A stretch of DNA of 64,000 nt from Stigmatella aurantiaca (lineage in GTDB: Bacteria > Myxococcota > Myxococcia > Myxococcales > Myxococcaceae): contig NZ_FOAP01000010.1 of NCBI RefSeq assembly GCF_900109545.1, positions 62,001 to 126,000 of the forward strand, given 5' to 3'. Both the position numbers and the translations under genes were made by a program. Below, one piece after another: positions 6,886 to 19,468 of this stretch (position 1 is its first letter; every line of letters begins with the position of its first letter). The notes under the pieces are model-generated. The model saw nothing but the letters and a program-made list of their open reading frames with translations, made no database searches and had not been told where the DNA came from.

Positions 6886-7037
6886 GGCCGGGACGGGGTG
6901 GAGACTTCCCTTCCCTGTGCATTCCCGCCTTTTTCCCCAGTCTGGCGGGCGGTTTGCCCGGTGGGCCCCCCGGCTTCCCTGCCTGGGCATTCCCGTTGCA
7001 ACAGCCCTCCTGGACGGAGTCTGGGGAGGCGGCGCTT

Positions 7038-10001
7038 ATGTGGGGACGTCGGTGGGCTTGGCTGGTGGCGTGGGCGTGCGTGGCGGGGGGGCTGAGCGGG
7101 TGTGACCGGCAGAGCTCCGGCAACCGCGCGCGCACGGGCTTCGCCGCACGGCCCCAGGCGCTGGAGTTTGGCCCGGCGGCGATCGGCTCCACCAAGACGG
7201 TGAAACTCCGGGTGGCCAACGAGGGCCGGGCCCCGCTGCGCGTGGAGGGGGCCTCCTCCAGCGTGCCCAACGTGGAGATTGCCCCGTTCGAGCCCTTCTC
7301 GCTGAGCGCGGGGGGCGAGGCCGAGCTGGAGGTGCGCTTCTCGCCCGCCGTGGAGGGCACGGTGCAGGGCGTGGTGGACATCCTCACGGACGCGGACTCG
7401 GACGGGGCCGCGGGCTCGCAGGTGAACTTCGCGGGCCAGGGCGTGAAGGCCTGGGTCGAGGTGCGCAGCCAGGAGCTGGATTTTGGCAACGTGGCGCTGG
7501 ACACCGTGCAGGTGCTCACGCTGCGCCTGCGCAATTCCTCCCGCGTGGAGAGCCCGCTGCGGCTGCGCATGGCCGGGGCGGACGCGGATCAGTTCTCCTC
7601 CAGCACGGCCGGGCCGGAGCTGATGTTGCAGCCGGGCGAGGAGCAGGCCCTGCCCATCGCGTTCAAGCCGCGCCGGCTGGGCGTGGCCTCCGCCGAGGTG
7701 AGCGTGGAGGTGTGCGAGGGCTGCGCGCCCATCGCCGTGCCGCTCAAGGGCATGGGCATCGCCTCGCAGCTGGATATTTCTCCCCTGCGGGTGGACTTCG
7801 GCAACGTGGCGCTGGGGGCCACGGCCGAGGAGCGCATCATGGTGCGCAACCTGGGCACCTCGCCCATGAGCTACCAGGGCGCGCGCCTCCTCGAGGGCGC
7901 CGGTGAGTTCCGCCTGCTGAGCGCGGTGGTGCCCCCGGGCGGTGTCCTGAATCCGGGACAGGCCGCGGAGATCCGCGTGGCGTTCGCGCCGTCGCGGCTC
8001 GGCGCGCTTCCCGAGGCGCGGGTGGAGATCGACGTGAAGGCCACCGGCTCGGCCGCGCCCGCGCCCAAGGTGGCCCTGAGCGGGGAGGGCGGCTCCTCGT
8101 GCGTGACGGTGCTGCCGCGCGCGCTGGACCTAGGGGGGGTGGCCGAGGGCATGTCCGCCACCCGCGAGGTGAAGGTCATCAACCGCTGCCGCGCCCCGGT
8201 GCTGGTGAGTGACTTGCAGATTGACACGCGGCAGGGCGGGTTCTTCACGCTGGCCCAGGCGCCCGCGAGCACCCCCATCGCCCCCGGCCAGTCGGCCGCC
8301 GTGGGCGTCACCTTCACGCCCCGGGCGGGCGCGGGGCAGGGCGAGGCCCAGCTCTCCGTGTCCGTGCGCAGCGGCGGCACCACCTCCACCGAGGCGGTGA
8401 CGCTCAAGGGGAACGGCAAGGCGCTCCCGCCGTGCCAGTACGCGGTGTCCCCGGCCACGCTCGACTTCGGCCGGGTGCCGGTGGGCGCGGAGGTGGTGCT
8501 GGGCACCTCCGTGCGCAACACGGGCGCCACGGAGTGCTACCTCGCGGGGCTGCAGCTCGCCTCGGGCTCGGACGGGGCCTTCAGCGCCCCGCCGGTGACG
8601 GGCGCGCTGCTGGCCCCGGGGCAGAAGGCGCAGCTGCTCGTCCGGTTCAAGCCGGAGGCGGAGGCCTCCTATGGTGGCTTGGCGGAGGGCTGGGTGAACC
8701 ACCCGTCCAATGGGCACCCCACCGTGAACGTGGTGGGCGAGGGGGTGAAGGGCTGCTTCGCCGTTCAGCCCACGCACCTGGAGTTTGGCCTCTCGCAGCT
8801 CACGTGCGCGCCGCGCACGCAGGACGTCATCGCCTACAACGGCTGCGCGGGCCCGCTCACCGTCCAGGGGCTGCAGGTGCAGCAGGACAGCGCGGAGTTC
8901 CAGCTCTCGGAGGTGCCCACCTTCCCGGTGACGCTGGAGGCGGGCGGGCAGTTCCGGCTGCGCGCCACCTACGCGCCGGAGAACGAGGGCGTGGACGCGG
9001 CGGCGCTGCGCTTTGAGCTGGGGCCGGACTCCATCTACACCGCGAGCCTGCTGGGCAAGGGCGTGAGCAAGGCGGAGCAGACCGACACGTTCTTCCAGGA
9101 GTCCGAGGCCAAGGTCGACGTGCTCTTCGTCGTGGACAACTCGGGCTCGATGATGGAGGAGCAGCAGAGCCTGGGCAGCAACTTCGCCGCCTTCCTGAGC
9201 TCCGCCAACACCGCGGGCGTGGACTACCACATCGGCGTCACCACCACGGGCCTGGATGCCTCGCCGGGCGGCTGGTCCGCGTGCCTGGGCGGCGCCGAGG
9301 GCGGTGAGAACGGCCGGCTCTTCCCGGTGGATGGCGCCTCGCCGCGTGTCATTACGCCCACCACGCCGAACGCCTCGTCCGTCTTCGCCCACAACACGCA
9401 GGTGGGCGTGTGCCACTGGAACGAGCAGGGGCTGGAGGCCGCCTACCGGGCCCTGTCCCAGCCGCTGCTGCACAACACGGATGATCCGCGCACCGCGCAG
9501 GCCGCGGACGGCAACGGCGGCTTCCTGCGCGAGGACGCGCGGCTGGCGCTCATCTTCCTCACCGACGAGGAGGACTTCTCCCCCCAGCCGGTGGCCTTCT
9601 ACGAGACGTACTTCCGCGCGCTGAAGAACAACGAGGCCTCCAAGCTGAGCGTCTCGGCCATCGTGGGGCCCACGAACCTGTCCACCTGCGTGACGGCCAG
9701 CAGCTCGGGCGCGCGCTACATCCAGCTCGCGGAGGCCACCGGCGGCGTCGTGGAGAGCATCTGCACGCCGAACTGGGCCGAGTCCCTCAAGAAGCTCTCG
9801 TCCAACACCTTCGGGCCCAACCGCTCCTTCCCGCTGTCCGAGCAGCCGGAGAATCCCTCGCAGATCTCCGTCACGGTGGATGGGGTGCCGGTGACGTCCG
9901 GTTGGCATTACAACCCAGACACCCGCGCCATCCTCTTCGAGGCGCAGGCCGCTCCCCCTCCAGGCGCCCTGGTAGAGGTGACGTACCCGCTCGGGTGCTG
10001 A
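7038..10001 (+). CDS. Choice-of-anchor D (ASH) repeat lipoprotein with C-terminal VWA domain
   Basis: The 987-residue protein begins with a lipoprotein signal (WAWLVAWACVAGGLSGC), so it is probably an outer-membrane or surface lipoprotein. Six repeats of about 105-120 residues follow, each opening with a motif like ALEFGPAAIGST, ELDFGNVALDT, RVDFGNVALG, ALDLGGVAEG, TLDFGRVPVG or HLEFG. These are ASPM/SPD-2/Hydin-type immunoglobulin-like domains. From about residue 690 a von Willebrand A domain carries the metal site DNSGSM (DxSxS). The start at 7038 is chosen for GGGAGG nine bases upstream and the signal peptide. A role in adhesion or surface assembly is inferred. An intrinsic terminator follows at 10032. 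Confidence 0.88.
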   Translation: MWGRRWAWLVAWACVAGGLSGCDRQSSGNRARTGFAARPQALEFGPAAIGSTKTVKLRVANEGRAPLRVEGASSSVPNVEIAPFEPFSLSAGGEAELEVRFSPAVEGTVQGVVDILTDADSDGAAGSQVNFAGQGVKAWVEVRSQELDFGNVALDTVQVLTLRLRNSSRVESPLRLRMAGADADQFSSSTAGPELMLQPGEEQALPIAFKPRRLGVASAEVSVEVCEGCAPIAVPLKGMGIASQLDISPLRVDFGNVALGATAEERIMVRNLGTSPMSYQGARLLEGAGEFRLLSAVVPPGGVLNPGQAAEIRVAFAPSRLGALPEARVEIDVKATGSAAPAPKVALSGEGGSSCVTVLPRALDLGGVAEGMSATREVKVINRCRAPVLVSDLQIDTRQGGFFTLAQAPASTPIAPGQSAAVGVTFTPRAGAGQGEAQLSVSVRSGGTTSTEAVTLKGNGKALPPCQYAVSPATLDFGRVPVGAEVVLGTSVRNTGATECYLAGLQLASGSDGAFSAPPVTGALLAPGQKAQLLVRFKPEAEASYGGLAEGWVNHPSNGHPTVNVVGEGVKGCFAVQPTHLEFGLSQLTCAPRTQDVIAYNGCAGPLTVQGLQVQQDSAEFQLSEVPTFPVTLEAGGQFRLRATYAPENEGVDAAALRFELGPDSIYTASLLGKGVSKAEQTDTFFQESEAKVDVLFVVDNSGSMMEEQQSLGSNFAAFLSSANTAGVDYHIGVTTTGLDASPGGWSACLGGAEGGENGRLFPVDGASPRVITPTTPNASSVFAHNTQVGVCHWNEQGLEAAYRALSQPLLHNTDDPRTAQAADGNGGFLREDARLALIFLTDEEDFSPQPVAFYETYFRALKNNEASKLSVSAIVGPTNLSTCVTASSSGARYIQLAEATGGVVESICTPNWAESLKKLSSNTFGPNRSFPLSEQPENPSQISVTVDGVPVTSGWHYNPDTRAILFEAQAAPPPGALVEVTYPLGC

Positions 10002-10031: not shown

Positions 10032-10064
10032 GAGAGGACCCCCCGGGTCCTTCTCTTCAATTTT
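10032..10064 (+). terminator. Intrinsic terminator after the ASH/VWA lipoprotein
   Basis: GAGA-GGACCC, a three-base loop, GGGTCC and TCTC form a ten-pair stem with one bulged T, followed within six bases by TTTT. It lies 31 bases after the stop codon. Confidence 0.65.
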
Positions 10065-10157: not shown

Positions 10158-11075
10158 ATGTCCACACAATCTCTCCTCATCGCGGGTGTGGGAGACATCC
10201 ATGGACGCTTCCACCGGGTGGAAGCGTGGATGGAGGTGTTGGAGAAGGCGCGGGGCCGGCCGGTGGACCTGGTGCTGGCGGTGGGGGACGTGGAGGCCTT
10301 CCGGCGCGCGGATGATCAGCGCCGCAAGATGACCAAGCGCCTCATGCCCGCCGAGTTCGCCGAGTACGCGGATGGGCAGCGGCAGATGAAGCGGCCGCTG
10401 TACTTCATCGGTGGGAACAACGAGGACTTCGAGGCGCTCCACGACGCGCCGGAGGGCATGGAGCTGGCCCCCCAGGTGTATTACCTCGGGCGGGCGGGGC
10501 TCCAGACGCTGCGGGGGCTGCGCGTGGCGTACCTCTCGGGCATCCACGCCCCGCGCTTCTTCGAGCAGCCGCTCAAGCGGCCCCGGGCGCTCGATACGGC
10601 GAAGCAGGCCGGCTACTTCCGTGCGCCCGAAGTCGAGCGCGTCATGCACGCGCGGGACGTGGACCTGTTGCTGGTGCACGAGTGGCCCCGGGGCATCGTG
10701 CAGCGGGCGCGGGACGAGAACACCCCTTCGGCCCGGCCCCTGCCGTCGTATTGGATTGGCAATCCCATCACGCGCCGGTTGGCGGACACGCTGCGGCCCA
10801 AGTGGATGTTCTGTGGCCACTCCCACAAGGGCTTCGCGGTGTCCCTGGGCGGCGAGAGCGGACGGCCGGTGACGCGCATTGCCTGTCTGGATCAGGCGGC
10901 GCGGCCGGATGAGGCGGTGTTCTGGCTGGAGTTCGAGAACCGCGAGCCCGTGCGCGGCGGCTGGGGCCTGTCCGGCGCGGTGGCCTGGCAGGCCGGGGCG
11001 CCGTGGAACCTTCAATCGCTGCCCGCGGCAGGGCCCCACGCCGCCTTGCCGGAAGAGGAGCGGGAGCTGGGGTGA
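10158..11075 (+). CDS. Dbr1-like metallophosphoesterase
   Basis: The 305-residue calcineurin-like phosphoesterase has the metal-ligand motifs GDIHG (D13, H15), GDVEAFR (D44), GGNNE (N87), HEW (H174) and GHSH (H221, H223). Beyond these general motifs, the layout matches the eukaryotic RNA lariat debranching enzyme Dbr1: GDxxAxR, FIGGNxE, APxxYYLGxAG, a following SGI, then HEWPRGI (HDWPRSI in Dbr1), GNP...L.PKWMF and GHSH. Two differences show. The first motif has the canonical Asp where Dbr1 has Cys, and the usual GNHE is GNNE. ATG 10158 is preferred over the upstream TTG at 10131 (GAAGG seven bases before). It is monocistronic. Substrate unknown; cleavage of 2'-5' branched nucleic acid is only an inference. 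Confidence 0.85.
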   Translation: MSTQSLLIAGVGDIHGRFHRVEAWMEVLEKARGRPVDLVLAVGDVEAFRRADDQRRKMTKRLMPAEFAEYADGQRQMKRPLYFIGGNNEDFEALHDAPEGMELAPQVYYLGRAGLQTLRGLRVAYLSGIHAPRFFEQPLKRPRALDTAKQAGYFRAPEVERVMHARDVDLLLVHEWPRGIVQRARDENTPSARPLPSYWIGNPITRRLADTLRPKWMFCGHSHKGFAVSLGGESGRPVTRIACLDQAARPDEAVFWLEFENREPVRGGWGLSGAVAWQAGAPWNLQSLPAAGPHAALPEEERELG

Positions 11076-12620: not shown

Positions 12621-15600
12621 ATGCCCCGTCCCGGCCGCACCCTCCAGGTCTTCCCCGACGCGAACCGGCGCCAGCAAGTGCTGCGCGCGACACGCGAAAG
12701 CCACGGCTTCGTGCGGGCGGCGGGTTGTCTCACCTGGGACGAATTCGTCAACGCGCTGGGTGGCGCCAGGGCGCTGAAGCGCAGGCCGTGCCCGGCCTCG
12801 GCCGCGCGCGTGGTGATGGGCTCGCTGGCCCAGGGACTGGGCGAGACGCCCTTTGGTGCCTTCGTCCAGGAGCCCGCCTTCGCCCGCGCCGCGCTGGAGC
12901 TCGTGCTCGACATGAAGGCGGGCCGGTTGACGCCCCGGGAGCTCCAGGACGCCGCGGAGCTGCTGCCGCAGGAGCGCCGGCCCCGGCTCCGGGTGCTCGC
13001 CCGGCTGTATGACGGCTATGTCCGGCGCATGGAGGCCCTGGGGCTGGCGGACCGCGAGGACGTGCTGCGCGGCTCGCTCCAGGCGCTGAAGGCGGGCACG
13101 TGGCCCGCGGCCTGGGAGGACGTGGACACGCTCGTGCTGCACGGCCTGTACGACGTGCGGCCCTCGGGGCTGGAGCTGCTCCTGGCGCTGGCGGCGGTGT
13201 GCGAGAAGCGCCAGGTGGCCCTGCGGGTGGAGACGCCCGTGGGCGGCTCGCCCGTGGCGGACGCGGCGCTGGCGGGCCTGTTCCGGGCCTTCGAGAACCA
13301 GGGGGAGGCCCTGAGCCAGGTCGACCTCTTCAAGGCGGACCTGACCTTCGAGGCCCGGCCCCTGGCCGAGCTGGGACGCCACCTGTTCTCCGCGGGCGTG
13401 GCGCGCGGGGCGCTGGAGGCCGCGGCGGGCCCCTTGCGCATGTGGAGCGTGGGCTCGGCCCAGGACGAGGCCCGGCAGATCGCCCGGGACGTGCGCCGGC
13501 TGGTGGCCGAGGGCGTCGAACCGGCCCGGATCGCCGTGGCCTGGCGGGAGCCGGGGCCGGAGGCGCGGTGGCTGGCCGAGGCGCTGGGCGAGCTGGGCGT
13601 GCCCGTGAGGCTGCCGTATGGCGAGCCGCTCGCGCTGGCGGGCCCGGTGCGGCTGGCGTTGGACTTGCCCCTGCTGGCCGAGGATGGGTTTCCGGCCGAG
13701 CGCGTGGCGGAGCTGGTGGCGAGCCGGTACGCGCCCATCCTCTCGCGCGGCGCACCCGAGGCCCCGGCGACGCTCTTCACCCTGGCCGCGGTGCGGGACG
13801 ACCGGCTGGGTGCCTCGCGGGGCAAGGGCGCGTATGACGTGCGGCTGGAGGGGCTGGCACGCCGGATGGTGGCGGCCCACGACGAGCGGGCCCACGCCGT
13901 GCGGCTGCTCCGGGAGCGCTGCCTGCGGCTGATGGAGGAGTGCCGCCGCATCCCCGAGTCGGGCAGCGCGCTGGAGCTGCTCGGGGCGTGGTGGCAGGCC
14001 GTGCGGCAACTGGGGCTCACGGACTCGGAAGGGGAGCTGGAGCCCCTGCGGGACGACGCCCTGGGGCTGCACGGGCTGGAGGCCCGCTCCCGGGACGATG
14101 CCGCGCGCCAGGCACTGAGCCTCCGGGTGGGGGAGCTGGAGCGCACGCTGCGGACGGTGGACGGCGGCCCGAAGTTGTCCCGGCGCACCTTCGGCCGGTG
14201 GCTCCTGGACGCGATGCGGGACGTGTACCTGCCGCCCCGGGGGCCCGCCGCCGGCGCGGTGGAGGTGCTGGACATCCGCGAGCTGGCGGGCCGGACGTTC
14301 GGCCACCTGTTCCTGGCGGGCATGACGGAGGGCCGCTTCCCGGGACACGAGGCGCCCAATCCCTTGCTGGGGGACGCCGACCGGGTGGAGCTGAACAAGC
14401 ACCTGGGGCGGGAAGTTTTCCGGCTCACCGGCGGCGAGTTCGAGGATCGCGCGCCGTGGCGCCTCGCCGAGGACCGGCTGCTCTTCGCCAGCGCGCTGGT
14501 GGCGGCGGAGGAGCAGGTGAGCCTGTCCTTCCCGGCGACGGGCGTGGGCGGGCAGGAGCAGGTGCCCTCCGGGTTCCTGGAGGAGCTCCGCCGGCTCACG
14601 GGCAAGGGCTGGGAGGCGCGGGCGCTGATGGCCGTGCCCCCGCTGGATGACGTGCTCACGGAGTCCGAGCTGCGCCAGCGCGTGGCCCTGGAGACGCTGG
14701 CGTCCGCCCGGCTGCGCGTGACCGAGCCGGATGTGGCGGGGCCCTTGCTGCGCCGGCGCTTCGCGGTCGAGGCGTGGTTCGCCAGCGTGAAGGAGCTGGC
14801 GCACGTGGAGGTTGAACGCCTGCACTTCTTCAGCAACCCGGCCAACCGGGTGGGCCCCTACACGGGACACATCGCGGGCCCGGGGCTGGACGTGGCGCTG
14901 CGGGAGACGTTCCGCTTCGATGAGACCCGGCCCCTGTCGGCCTCGGCGCTGGCCCGGTTTGGAAACTGTGGCTTCCAGGGCTTCCTCACGTACGGGCTGA
15001 AGGTGGCCGAGCCGGATCAGCCGGGCGAGGAGTTCGATGCGCGCGGCCGGGGAACCTTCTGGCACCGGGTGCTGGAGGAGGTGTTTAAGCGGCTCCGGGA
15101 GCAGGGGCTGCTCGGCAAGGGCTTGGACGAAATCCCGGAGGAGGTGCTGGATGCCTCGCTGGCCAAGGCGGTGCTCTACTTCGAGCAGCGCAACCACGTG
15201 GGCCATCCGGAGCTGTGGAAGCTCGCCAAGGAGCGGGCCCGGGCCATGGCGCGGCGCATCCTCGCGGACGAGCGCCGGGGGATGCCCTTCGAGCGCTACA
15301 TGCCCGAGGAGTTCGAGCTGAAGTTCGGCCCGCAGGCCATCCGGGAGACGTGGAAGCAGGTGTCGCTCCTGGCGGGCGAGGAGGCCATCCACTTCGAGGG
15401 GAAGATCGACCGGCTGGATCTGAGCGCGGGCGACGTGGGCGTCATCGACTACAAGTCGGGGCGCCTGGACAAGCGGGAGCTGAAACAGAAGCTCCTGTCC
15501 TCGGACTTCCAGCTCCCGCTGTATCTCTACGCGGCGCGGGCCAGCGGCCACCGGGAGGCGCGCAACGCGGCCTGGTTCTCGCTCCGCACGGGGACGACGG

Positions 15601-15836
15601 TGCACCTGTCCGAGGTGGTCTCCGCCGAGGAGCTGGAGGACATGCTGGCCACGGATCCGGCCATCCGCGCCCGGCTGGCCGAGGAAGAGAAGCCCAACCT
15701 GGCGAACGCGGTGGAGCAGCTGGTGGCCACGGCCCGGAAGGGCCAGTTCGGCATGCGCCCGAAGGATTGCGGCAGCTGCGGCTACCGGGCGGTGTGCCGC
15801 ATCACCGAGCGGCGCGTGGTGGAGGAGGGCGTTTGA
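12621..15836 (+). CDS. AddB-like nuclease subunit with iron-sulphur-type PD-(D/E)XK domain
   Basis: The 1071-residue protein resembles the AddB side of AddAB helicase-nucleases. The N-terminal 750 residues look like a UvrD-type fold without a usable Walker A motif. The C-terminal RecB-family nuclease has H815 (GTFWHRVLEE), D930 (GKIDRLD) and D943/K945 (VIDYKSG), an intact catalytic set. Four cysteines, C783 (NCGFQGF) and C1050, C1053, C1059 (C-x2-C-x5-C), are placed like the [4Fe-4S] ligands of AddB, AdnB and Cas4. Its stop overlaps the TTG start of the helicase gene, so the two are translationally coupled. Expected role: double-strand-end resection for homologous recombination. Exact family (AddAB, AdnAB or a separate clade) is not settled. 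Confidence 0.85.
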   Translation: MPRPGRTLQVFPDANRRQQVLRATRESHGFVRAAGCLTWDEFVNALGGARALKRRPCPASAARVVMGSLAQGLGETPFGAFVQEPAFARAALELVLDMKAGRLTPRELQDAAELLPQERRPRLRVLARLYDGYVRRMEALGLADREDVLRGSLQALKAGTWPAAWEDVDTLVLHGLYDVRPSGLELLLALAAVCEKRQVALRVETPVGGSPVADAALAGLFRAFENQGEALSQVDLFKADLTFEARPLAELGRHLFSAGVARGALEAAAGPLRMWSVGSAQDEARQIARDVRRLVAEGVEPARIAVAWREPGPEARWLAEALGELGVPVRLPYGEPLALAGPVRLALDLPLLAEDGFPAERVAELVASRYAPILSRGAPEAPATLFTLAAVRDDRLGASRGKGAYDVRLEGLARRMVAAHDERAHAVRLLRERCLRLMEECRRIPESGSALELLGAWWQAVRQLGLTDSEGELEPLRDDALGLHGLEARSRDDAARQALSLRVGELERTLRTVDGGPKLSRRTFGRWLLDAMRDVYLPPRGPAAGAVEVLDIRELAGRTFGHLFLAGMTEGRFPGHEAPNPLLGDADRVELNKHLGREVFRLTGGEFEDRAPWRLAEDRLLFASALVAAEEQVSLSFPATGVGGQEQVPSGFLEELRRLTGKGWEARALMAVPPLDDVLTESELRQRVALETLASARLRVTEPDVAGPLLRRRFAVEAWFASVKELAHVEVERLHFFSNPANRVGPYTGHIAGPGLDVALRETFRFDETRPLSASALARFGNCGFQGFLTYGLKVAEPDQPGEEFDARGRGTFWHRVLEEVFKRLREQGLLGKGLDEIPEEVLDASLAKAVLYFEQRNHVGHPELWKLAKERARAMARRILADERRGMPFERYMPEEFELKFGPQAIRETWKQVSLLAGEEAIHFEGKIDRLDLSAGDVGVIDYKSGRLDKRELKQKLLSSDFQLPLYLYAARASGHREARNAAWFSLRTGTTVHLSEVVSAEELEDMLATDPAIRARLAEEEKPNLANAVEQLVATARKGQFGMRPKDCGSCGYRAVCRITERRVVEEGV

Positions 15837-18800
15837 GCACCGCGTCTTCCCTGGCCCTGGAGCAGAACCTCGCGCTGATGGCGGGCGCGGGCGCGGGCAA
15901 GACATACAGCCTGGTGACGATGGTGCTGCACCTGCTGGCGGGCGCGCGGGAAGCGGGCCCGGCGCTGCGGCCCGCGAGGCTGTGCATGTTGACCTTCACC
16001 GACAAGGCGGCGGCGGAGATGCGCTCGCGCACCCGCGCGCGCCTGGACGCGCTCGCCCAGGCGGAGGCGAAGGAGCCGGAGCTGCGCGCCTCGCTGGAGC
16101 GGCTGAGCCGCCCCTTTCCCACGCAGGACACCTGGCGGGCCCTGCGCGAGGAGCTGGGCGCGGCCACGGTGGGCACCTTCCACTCGCTTTGTGGACAGCT
16201 CCTGCGCCGCGCGCCCGCGGGCCTGGGGATTGATCCGGCCTTCGAGGTGCTCGACGAGCTGGAGGCGAGCAGCCTTGTGCAGGACGTGTGCGAGCGCGTG
16301 GTGCTGGACGCGCTGGAGAAGGGCAGCCCCGAGGTGAGCGAGCTGTGCCAGGAGCTGACCTTCTCGGGCTCCGGGTTCTCCGAGGGCCTCGTGAGCTCGC
16401 TGCGGCAGGTCTACGCCAAGCTGCGCGAGGAGGGGCTCCGGGCGGAGACCGCGCCCATCTCACGCATCGAGGAGGCCCGTGCCGCGCTGGAAGCGCTCTT
16501 CGGCGAGGGCTTGAAGCACTGTGCCTCGGCGAGGGAGCTGGATGCGAAGGGCGAGTGGCGCCTGCTGCGCGAGGCCTGCGAGCGCGCGCTGGAGGGGATG
16601 ACGCCGGAGAACTTCTCCGAAGCGGACCGGCTGCCCGCGCTCAAGGCCGCGTTCCTGGCGGATGGCCGCAACTTCGCGCGGTTGAGCAAGGGCGCGGCGA
16701 GCCCCATCCGGGCGCTGTACTGGCTCGTGTTCGGCAAGAGTGATGGCTCGGTGCTGCGGTTCGAGGACGCGTTCGCGGCTTGGCGCACGGTGCCGTTCGA
16801 GAGCACCTTCCGTGCGCTGCTCGGCCAGGTCGAGGTGCGCCACGAGACCGAGTTCTCCCGGCGCAACGTCTTCGACTTCACCGCCTTGCTGGTGAAGGCG
16901 CGGGACTTGTTGAGGGACCACCCCACCTTCCGCCGCCAGGTGCAGGAGCGGATGGGGGCGCTGCTGGTGGACGAGTTCCAGGACACTAACCGGCTCCAGC
17001 TCGATCTGGTGCTGCTGCTGTCGGAGCAACGGGACGGAGGCCCCCGGACGGTGCGTCCGGACGAGGACCTGCGCGCCGCGCTCCCGCTGGAGCCCGCGTT
17101 CCTGTGCGCGGTGGGCGACCGCAAGCAGTCCATCTACGAGTTCCGGGGCGCGGACGTCTCCGTCTTCGCGGCGCTGGCGGAGAAGATTGTCGCCGAGGGA
17201 GGCCAGAAGGGCTTTCTCCAGCACAACCGCCGCTCGGTGCCGGCGCTGCTCGACTTCTTCAACCGGGCCTTCGCGGGGGTGCTGGTGGCGGGCCAGCCCC
17301 CACGCCCGTACGAGGTGGCGTACGTCTCCGAGGAGGACGATCTGTCGCCGGTGCGCCCGGAGTTCTCCCCGGAGCCCGCGGTGGAGCGGCTGCTCATCGG
17401 AGAGGCGGAGACCGCGTCGGGCGCGCGCGAGCTGGACGCCGACGCGGTGGCCCGGCGGCTGCGCCTGCTGCTGGCGCCGGGCGCACCCCCGTGTGTGGCC
17501 CACGAGGACGGCCAGCGCCTGCGCCTCGCGCGCGGCGGCGACGTGGCCATCCTCCTGCGAACCTTCACCCACCTGGAGGTGTACCGCCAGGCGCTCATCC
17601 GCCATGGCGTGCCGCACCGGGTGCTGCGGGGACGCGGCTTCTATGGGGCCCAGGAGGTGCTGGATCTGGCCTCGTTGCTGGCGCTCCTGGCGGATCCGGA
17701 GGACGCGCTCGCGCTGGCGGCGGTGCTGCGCTCGCCCCTGGTGGGGCTGTCGGATGCCGCGCTTTTCCGGCTGTCGGGGGAGAAGGGCCTGACGCTGGCG
17801 GGCGTGGAGCAGAAGGACCTCGCCACGTGCGAGCTGGAGCCCAGCGAGCGGCTGCGGCTGGAGCGCTTCCTGACGGCGCTTCCCTCGCTGCGGCGGGAGC
17901 GGGACCGGCTGGGCGTGAAGGCCTTGCTTCAGGTGGCCATGGACGTCACGGGCTACCGCGAGGCCATGGCGGGAACCCCGTACGCGGAGCAGGCCAGCGC
18001 CAACATCGACAAACTGCTGGCGCTCGCGGGCCGGCGCGACGAGCGCGGCACGGGCGGGTGCGTGGCGTTCGCCCGGGAGCTGCGCATGCTCGTCGAGTCG
18101 GATCCGACCGAGGCGCAAGCGGACCTGCTGGACGCGGGAGACCCGCGCGCGGTGCAACTGCTCACCATCCACCGGGCGAAGGGCCTGGAGTGGCCCATCG
18201 TCGTGGTGCCAGGGCTGGGCGGCAAGCGGCGCTCCGAGAGCGGACGGATCCACTTCGAGCGGACGCACGGCCTGGTCTTGCGGCCATGGCTGCAGGACTC
18301 CCTGGAGAGCTTCAGCTCCACCCGCTTCGAGGCGGTGAAGGACGAGCTGGATACGCGAGGGCTGGCCGAGTACCGGCGCTTGCTCTACGTGGCGCTCACG
18401 CGTGCGAGGGACCTGCTGCTGCTCTCGGGCACGGCGGAGAAGCGCGTGCCCTTGTCCTGGTGGACGATGCTCGATGGGCGCCTGGGCTCGGACGCGGCGC
18501 TGCGGGCCCGGGTGCGGGACATCGAGGTGGCGGCCCTGCCACCACCCGCGGATCCGCTGCCGCCGGGCGCGGACGAAGTCGCGGAAGCCGAGGCGCGGGT
18601 GGAGGCGGCCATCCAGCGGGTGCGCGGTGGGGCGGCCCTGGAGCCGGTGTCCGCCGTGGCCTCGGCCGAGGCGCTCCAGGACTTCATGATCTGCCCGAGG
18701 CGCTACCGCTACATCCACCAGCTCGGCTTGAGCGGCCAGCGCCCGTGGGAGCTGCCGGCGAAGCGCCGCCCCCTGTGGGTCGAGGCCGATGCCTGGGGGC

Positions 18801-19468
18801 ACGCCCCGGACGCCTCCCAGATGGGGGCCGTGCTGCTCCGGGAGCTGGACTTCCGCTGGGCCACCGCGCCCACGCCGGAGCGCCGGGCACACCTGGAGGC
18901 CCTCCTTCAGGCGTGGGGCCACCTGCCAGACGGGGAGGGGATGGAGGCGGTCCTGGCGATGACCGAGCGCTTCCTGGACACCCCCTTTGCCCGGCTCCTG
19001 GCCGCAAGCCCTCCGTCGCACCTGCACCGGGGCCTGACCTTCTCGCTGGCGTTGTCCCTGCCGGGGGCGAAGGGCCAGGTGGCCGTGGAGGGCGAGCTGG
19101 ACCTGCTCTGGGAGACGCCCGAGGGGGAGGCGTGGGTGGTGGCCTACCGGCGGGGCAAACGTCACCCCCTGGGTCCGGTGGCCTTCGCGCACGAGCTGGT
19201 GGTGCAGGGGCTGGCGGCGAAGCGCCTGGTCCAGGACGGGGTGACGGTCCGGGCCGGGGTGGCCTTCCTCGGGGAGCCCTCGCCGGAGCCGGAGTTCCTC
19301 ACCCTGCCGGGGGGGTTGACGGAGGCCGCCGAGCCGCTGGAGCAGGCGGTGCGGGCCCTGGTCCGCTCCGGCATGCAAGATGAATGGCCCAGCCGGGAAG
19401 CCGCGGCGTGTCAGGCGCTACATTGTGGCTTCGCGGAACACTGTCACCCCTCCCCCCGTGCGTGCTAA
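15833..19468 (+). CDS. AddA/RecB-like UvrD-family helicase with degenerate nuclease domain
   Basis: The 1211-residue protein is an SF1 helicase. Walker A is GAGAGKT (K23), motif Ia LTFTDKAAAEMRSR, motif II VDEFQDT (D380, E381), motif III AVGDRKQSIYEFRGAD, motif V IHRAKGLEWP and motif VI LLYVALTRARDLLLL. The C-terminal nuclease-like domain keeps four cysteines (C954, C1193, C1198, C1204) and the first acidic residue (GELDLL, D1090). The DYK catalytic pair is replaced by A1104-Y-R1106, and the upstream His is Leu, so it is probably inactive. The start is TTG 15833 inside the preceding stop (TTGA), after a strong GGAGGAGGG. The open frame upstream is only antisense-quality sequence within the previous gene. 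It pairs with the AddB-like subunit. Confidence 0.88.
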   Translation: MSTASSLALEQNLALMAGAGAGKTYSLVTMVLHLLAGAREAGPALRPARLCMLTFTDKAAAEMRSRTRARLDALAQAEAKEPELRASLERLSRPFPTQDTWRALREELGAATVGTFHSLCGQLLRRAPAGLGIDPAFEVLDELEASSLVQDVCERVVLDALEKGSPEVSELCQELTFSGSGFSEGLVSSLRQVYAKLREEGLRAETAPISRIEEARAALEALFGEGLKHCASARELDAKGEWRLLREACERALEGMTPENFSEADRLPALKAAFLADGRNFARLSKGAASPIRALYWLVFGKSDGSVLRFEDAFAAWRTVPFESTFRALLGQVEVRHETEFSRRNVFDFTALLVKARDLLRDHPTFRRQVQERMGALLVDEFQDTNRLQLDLVLLLSEQRDGGPRTVRPDEDLRAALPLEPAFLCAVGDRKQSIYEFRGADVSVFAALAEKIVAEGGQKGFLQHNRRSVPALLDFFNRAFAGVLVAGQPPRPYEVAYVSEEDDLSPVRPEFSPEPAVERLLIGEAETASGARELDADAVARRLRLLLAPGAPPCVAHEDGQRLRLARGGDVAILLRTFTHLEVYRQALIRHGVPHRVLRGRGFYGAQEVLDLASLLALLADPEDALALAAVLRSPLVGLSDAALFRLSGEKGLTLAGVEQKDLATCELEPSERLRLERFLTALPSLRRERDRLGVKALLQVAMDVTGYREAMAGTPYAEQASANIDKLLALAGRRDERGTGGCVAFARELRMLVESDPTEAQADLLDAGDPRAVQLLTIHRAKGLEWPIVVVPGLGGKRRSESGRIHFERTHGLVLRPWLQDSLESFSSTRFEAVKDELDTRGLAEYRRLLYVALTRARDLLLLSGTAEKRVPLSWWTMLDGRLGSDAALRARVRDIEVAALPPPADPLPPGADEVAEAEARVEAAIQRVRGGAALEPVSAVASAEALQDFMICPRRYRYIHQLGLSGQRPWELPAKRRPLWVEADAWGHAPDASQMGAVLLRELDFRWATAPTPERRAHLEALLQAWGHLPDGEGMEAVLAMTERFLDTPFARLLAASPPSHLHRGLTFSLALSLPGAKGQVAVEGELDLLWETPEGEAWVVAYRRGKRHPLGPVAFAHELVVQGLAAKRLVQDGVTVRAGVAFLGEPSPEPEFLTLPGGLTEAAEPLEQAVRALVRSGMQDEWPSREAAACQALHCGFAEHCHPSPRAC

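Follow-up and report, generated by a model that had tools for sequence, protein, structure and literature searches.

The msDNA of Myxococcus xanthus is a classic branched molecule. Intron RNA that is branched is opened in eukaryotes by the lariat debranching enzyme Dbr1. Retron RT-DNA is debranched by the eukaryotic lariat debranching enzyme DBR1 (PMC8989520), and work on the enzyme of Entamoeba histolytica (EhDbr1; 4peh, 5k77) indicates which parts of such a protein are important. Its Cys14 is absolutely conserved and essential, the branch adenine is sandwiched by Tyr64 and His16 with Tyr64 stacking on it, and His91 has been proposed to protonate the leaving 2'-O (PMC4176325). The recognition loop and the C-terminal domain (PF05011; 82 aa in Entamoeba) are both needed, and EhDbr1 fails in vivo when Cys14 is changed to Ala or Ser or when the C-terminal domain is removed (PMC4176325). 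A Dbr1-like domain also forms the N-terminal part of CWF19L1 (8ro2). No report of a bacterial Dbr1 was found in the open-access literature that we searched, a scope outside which most subscription papers fall.

In the window, the stretch of 64,000 nucleotides of Stigmatella aurantiaca DNA that we analysed, one reading frame starts with ATG and encodes a protein of 305 aa (P0001) related to these enzymes, and the start of the family alignment coincides with this ATG. The prokaryotic relatives were sorted into two sets by a GNNE motif (subfamily A, which includes P0001) or a GNHE motif (subfamily B), and the His/Asn split between them is hence by construction. Residue numbers of EhDbr1 were verified on the printed PDB alignment. 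The features are as follows.

10036..10064, + strand: hairpin GGACCC-CCC-GGGTCC, then T-rich DNA, past the upstream gene; possible terminator (sequence and folding)
10158..11075, + strand: coding sequence of a Dbr1-clade metallophosphoesterase, subfamily A, 305 aa (ORF call, Pfam, PDB phmmer, class scan, model, fold search)
10191..10205, + strand: motif I, GDIHG, residues 12-16; D13 at the Dbr1 Cys14 position, H15 equivalent to Dbr1 His16 (alignment)
10284..10304, + strand: motif II, GDVEAFR, residues 43-49; D44 equivalent to the bridging Asp45 (alignment)
10338..10340, + strand: R61, where Dbr1 has the branch-point-stacking Tyr64 (alignment; role of Tyr64 from PMC4176325)
10413..10424, + strand: GNNE motif, residues 86-89; N87 metal ligand, N88 instead of the proposed acid His91 (alignment)
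10536..10622, + strand: SGI...GYFR segment, residues 127-155, at the position of the Dbr1 lariat recognition loop (alignment, conservation, confident model)
10677..10688, + strand: HEWP motif, residues 174-177; H174 metal ligand (alignment)
10815..10826, + strand: GHSH motif, residues 220-223; H221 and H223 metal ligands, S222 instead of Met231 (alignment)
10959..11006, + strand: C-terminal tail GWG...W...W, residues 268-283, specific to subfamily A and absent from nearly all B; no PF05011 match (Pfam, alignment)

The dN/dS of the gene is about 0.15-0.17 against three congeners, and the gene order around subfamily A genes is kept across the family, with an ASH-repeat gene usually upstream and a PAP2 gene often downstream; the subfamily is constrained and vertically inherited across related myxobacterial genomes. 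In the window, positions 6936-10001 encode a large ASH/HYDIN-type Ig-repeat protein, conserved as the immediate upstream neighbour in most loci of the Myxococcaceae. The hairpin past it has a folding z of -2.6, the best fold reaching beyond the hairpin, and as a possible terminator it suggests that the window gene is transcribed separately. Membership of an operon or a defence island was considered and rejected, given an ASH/HYDIN-type neighbour, the possible terminator in between, the absence of reverse transcriptase (RT) hits in the flanks and the absence of a PADLOC hit for P0001. The neighbouring genes give no pointer to the substrate of the protein. An Rfam scan of the window returned nothing and a phage search with P0001 found no match; one viral contig matched the clade, and there were distant mycobacteriophage matches to subfamily B. 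Two adjoining large genes at 12621-19468 appear, on reading their sequence, to resemble an AddB/AddA-type nuclease-helicase pair.

Pfam placed P0001 in generic Metallophos families only (E 1.8e-12) and NCBIfam gave no hit, so that the relationship to Dbr1 would escape routine annotation. When P0001 was compared by phmmer with 177,635 PDB sequences, Entamoeba Dbr1 was matched at E 1.6e-21, a value which at the level of sequence excludes a chance likeness, and the only other matches at E <= 1 were to CWF19L1 (1.2e-8 and 7.9e-8). A profile of eleven relatives, EhDbr1 itself among them, reached CWF19L1 at 1.5e-15, with no further significant match. The host genome contains 27 Metallophos matches, with P0001 the sole match to the Dbr1-like profile at E <= 0.1. 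The myxobacterial subfamily B protein matched EhDbr1 at E 6.5e-31.

AlphaFold gave confident models of P0001 (pLDDT 91.4, pTM 0.92) and of the M. xanthus subfamily B protein (pLDDT 94.9). In the fold search with the P0001 model the best nine matches were Dbr1 (E 9e-22 to 8e-21), followed by two of CWF19L1 type and then by LpxH (5e-8). The A and B models behaved alike, with Dbr1 first, CWF19L1 second and other phosphoesterases at E about 5e-8, and the TM-scores by query length were about 0.73 (A) and 0.83 (B). Two trees, one careful and the other larger and quick, were built with phosphoesterases of E. coli and of the host's own genome as outgroups. EhDbr1 groups with A, B and the archaeal forms, at a support of 95/96 in the careful and 95 in the larger tree, several long outgroup branches blurring the deeper order and a single catalytic part representing eukaryotic Dbr1, and in both trees P0001 lies outside the ApaH, SbcD, CpdA and YfcE groups. 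Subfamily A is a single clade (100/100) beside actinobacterial B proteins (95/87). In the careful tree EhDbr1 adjoins an archaeal MAG protein (97/91); this small protein (L080) is its sister and is relevant to the origin of eukaryotic Dbr1. A haloarchaeal plasmid phosphoesterase with a GNNE motif (L170) and gp159 of mycobacteriophage Thibault (L171) are distant relatives near the Dbr1 clade.

A preliminary description of the gene had taken its product for a homologue of Dbr1 rather than an Ap4A or UDP-sugar hydrolase, and had named structure prediction and phylogeny as checks. Both upheld this assignment, as the confident model ranks Dbr1 ahead of all other phosphoesterases with CWF19L1 next, and the tree places P0001 no nearer to diadenosine tetraphosphatases or UDP-sugar hydrolases, its neighbour group being that of EhDbr1. 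That the window gene encodes a true bacterial relative of Dbr1 is well supported, with sequence, fold and tree in agreement.

The same description was right about the motif series and about the seven metal ligands, all of which are present. Dbr1 His16, Asp45, Asn90, His180, His230 and His232 are matched by H15, D44, N87, H174, H221 and H223 of P0001, and these residues together with D13 are invariant in all 69 aligned subfamily A members. The two departures that it had pointed out, Asp for Cys and Asn for the His of GNHE, are real and fixed in the subfamily, every one of the 69 sequences having Asp for Cys14, Asn for His91 and also Arg for Tyr64. With no variation at the metal ligands, and none at N88 and R61 either, this is a stable replacement and not decay. 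Asp occupies the Cys14 position in every prokaryotic homologue aligned (69 A and 64 B), and judging from these sequences C14D may perhaps just be the ancestral prokaryotic state. The Tyr64 position holds Tyr in 88% of the 64 subfamily B sequences and Arg in every A; this residue and the Trp-rich tail co-vary sharply with the His/Asn split, a co-variation that is not by construction. P0001 resembles EhDbr1 in core, motif order, metal-site positions bar Cys14 and tree clade, and also has an insertion where the lariat recognition loop sits, about three residues shorter than that of Dbr1 and ordered in the model. It differs further in having Ser for Met231 and an alignment gap at Lys59, and instead of the PF05011-type domain, for which there was no match at E <= 1, it has only the short Trp-rich tail. 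Of the features that define Dbr1, P0001 has two and lacks four (Cys14, His91, Tyr64 and the C-terminal domain), and we have therefore not filed it as a Dbr1. The four absences lower the claim that P0001 is Dbr1, and less so the claim of similar substrates.

Taken from its sequence and model, P0001 is probably a folded, vertically inherited two-metal phosphodiesterase of the Dbr1/CWF19L1 clade with altered chemistry. It is probably catalytically active. It would bind two divalent metals in the usual phosphoesterase manner, the metals would activate a bridging water, and a phosphodiester, or less likely a phosphomonoester, would be hydrolysed. To judge from the loop and the kinship, the substrate may resemble RNA or a nucleotide and be gripped by the counterpart of the lariat recognition loop. 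Some phosphoesterases are active although they lack the motif His; in E. coli LpxH reads GNRD and YfcE reads GNCD. Another acid, or water, could make up for Asn88.

The preliminary description had gone further and proposed debranching of msDNA or intron lariats. A true bacterial debranchase, with another general acid for His91, would cut the 2'-5' bond of msDNA or of group II lariats, and we consider this unlikely for P0001. The Dbr1-clade fold, the insertion of lariat-loop size and the action of eukaryotic DBR1 on retron RT-DNA (PMC8989520) speak for it, and the host genome holds possible branched substrates in a type XIII retron product and a group II intron. Its two RT genes, neither near the window gene, belong to these elements. 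The intron (L001, C6:449639-452633) has a maturase RT and looks complete, with Rfam matches to D1-D4 (E 1.6e-19) and D5 (3.1e-11), and the retron RT has RT_XIII as its best PADLOC model (8.9e-155) and the Ec86 RT as its best PDB match. Near the retron RT (L002, C3:296320-299970) a strong inverted repeat at about 731-856 is probably the msd stem; Rfam miRNA models match it on both strands, below cut-offs. Against a debranchase stands the absence of Cys14, His91, Tyr64 and the C-terminal domain, given that EhDbr1 altered at Cys14 or without that domain fails in vivo (PMC4176325), and with the acid His and the branch-point Tyr missing P0001 is unlikely to be a canonical lariat debranchase. The fetched flanks of A and B loci, searched with both host RTs, gave no RT hit, a search that RTs unlike these two would escape.

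The distribution of the retron was also compared with that of subfamily A. Among the 147 genomes of the class, 72 had P0001-like matches, one of them (G051) a distant form, which leaves subfamily A in 71. With Mx162-type retron RTs counted at E <= 1e-50 and the counts taken by hand from tables, 62 genomes have both, 9 only A, 7 only the retron and 69 neither. Fisher's test gives p 2e-23 by genome, 1.8e-4 by genus and 0.047 by genus within the family, descent and genome size being ignored; the association is strong when genomes are counted but marginal when genera within the family are compared, and shared ancestry and genome size may explain it. Five A-positive genomes (G014, G110, G012, G032 and G035, the last through absence from the match list) have no RVT_1 match, and subfamily A therefore needs neither a retron nor an intron, though it may still be linked to them. 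With the residues and the domain missing, no linkage to an RT and occurrence where no RVT_1 is matched, the proposed debranching role is not supported, and on present sequence data msDNA is a possible substrate of P0001.

It is quite improbable that P0001 is a non-catalytic or weakly catalytic RNA-binding scaffold, like the phosphoesterase domain of CWF19L1. By both sequence and fold CWF19L1 ranks second among its relatives, and the match of P0001 to it (1.2e-8) is better than that of a subfamily B protein (0.18), but P0001 consists of one domain and its metal site is complete and invariant throughout subfamily A, and Pfam found Metallophos families only, with no CwfJ-type domain. That P0001 is an ordinary bacterial phosphoesterase of the Ap4A hydrolase, LpxH, 5'-nucleotidase or cAMP phosphodiesterase type, only superficially like Dbr1, can hardly be right: the generic Pfam match and the lack of an NCBIfam hit would fit, but LpxH, YfcE and others, which have the core fold in common with it and in some cases likewise lack the GNH His, are distant in fold score (LpxH 5e-8) and outside its clade in the trees, and sequence, profile, fold and tree all side with Dbr1.

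About 30 of the 71 A-positive genomes carry a second protein, 33-40% identical and with the GNHE motif. The host genome has subfamily A and not B. When named genomes were scanned with an alignment that had EhDbr1 at its head, 132 relatives came up, of which 80 were kept, and subfamily B among these occurs in Cyanobacteriota (e.g. L056), Acidobacteriota (e.g. L063), Pseudomonadota, Planctomycetota, Actinomycetota, Chloroflexota, archaeal MAGs and Myxococcota (e.g. M. xanthus L085). The B proteins belong to the clade of A and have Asp at position 14 and the insertion, but keep GNHE and mostly Tyr64, are without the Trp-rich tail and are nearer to EhDbr1. Going by these residues, subfamily B, present in M. 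xanthus, would be a likelier bacterial debranchase than A. An RVT_1 match occurs in 26 of 34 B-positive genomes, a count without a matched control, and nothing clear emerged as a recurrent neighbour of subfamily B across phyla in a neighbour clustering made noisy by spurious ORFs. L085 weakly matches the PADLOC candidate-defence model PDC-S10 (3.5e-7), perhaps only through the shared phosphoesterase fold. A record titled Comamonas sp. KCTC 72670 has Myxococcus-like A and B genes (L087, L100) in myxobacterial gene order, and its label is probably wrong. A wider proposal, that bacteria own Dbr1-homologous enzymes cleaving 2'-5' branches, A re-tuned (Asp, Asn, Arg) for a substrate such as msDNA and B for group II lariats, strikes us as distinctly unlikely.

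These results describe prokaryotic relatives that form a clade around Dbr1 and have active sites of two kinds, each represented in Myxococcus xanthus (A, L105; B, L085). The clade bears on the origin of eukaryotic Dbr1, EhDbr1 standing beside an archaeal sequence (97/91), and the debranching of msDNA or group II lariats by bacteria becomes a directly testable question.
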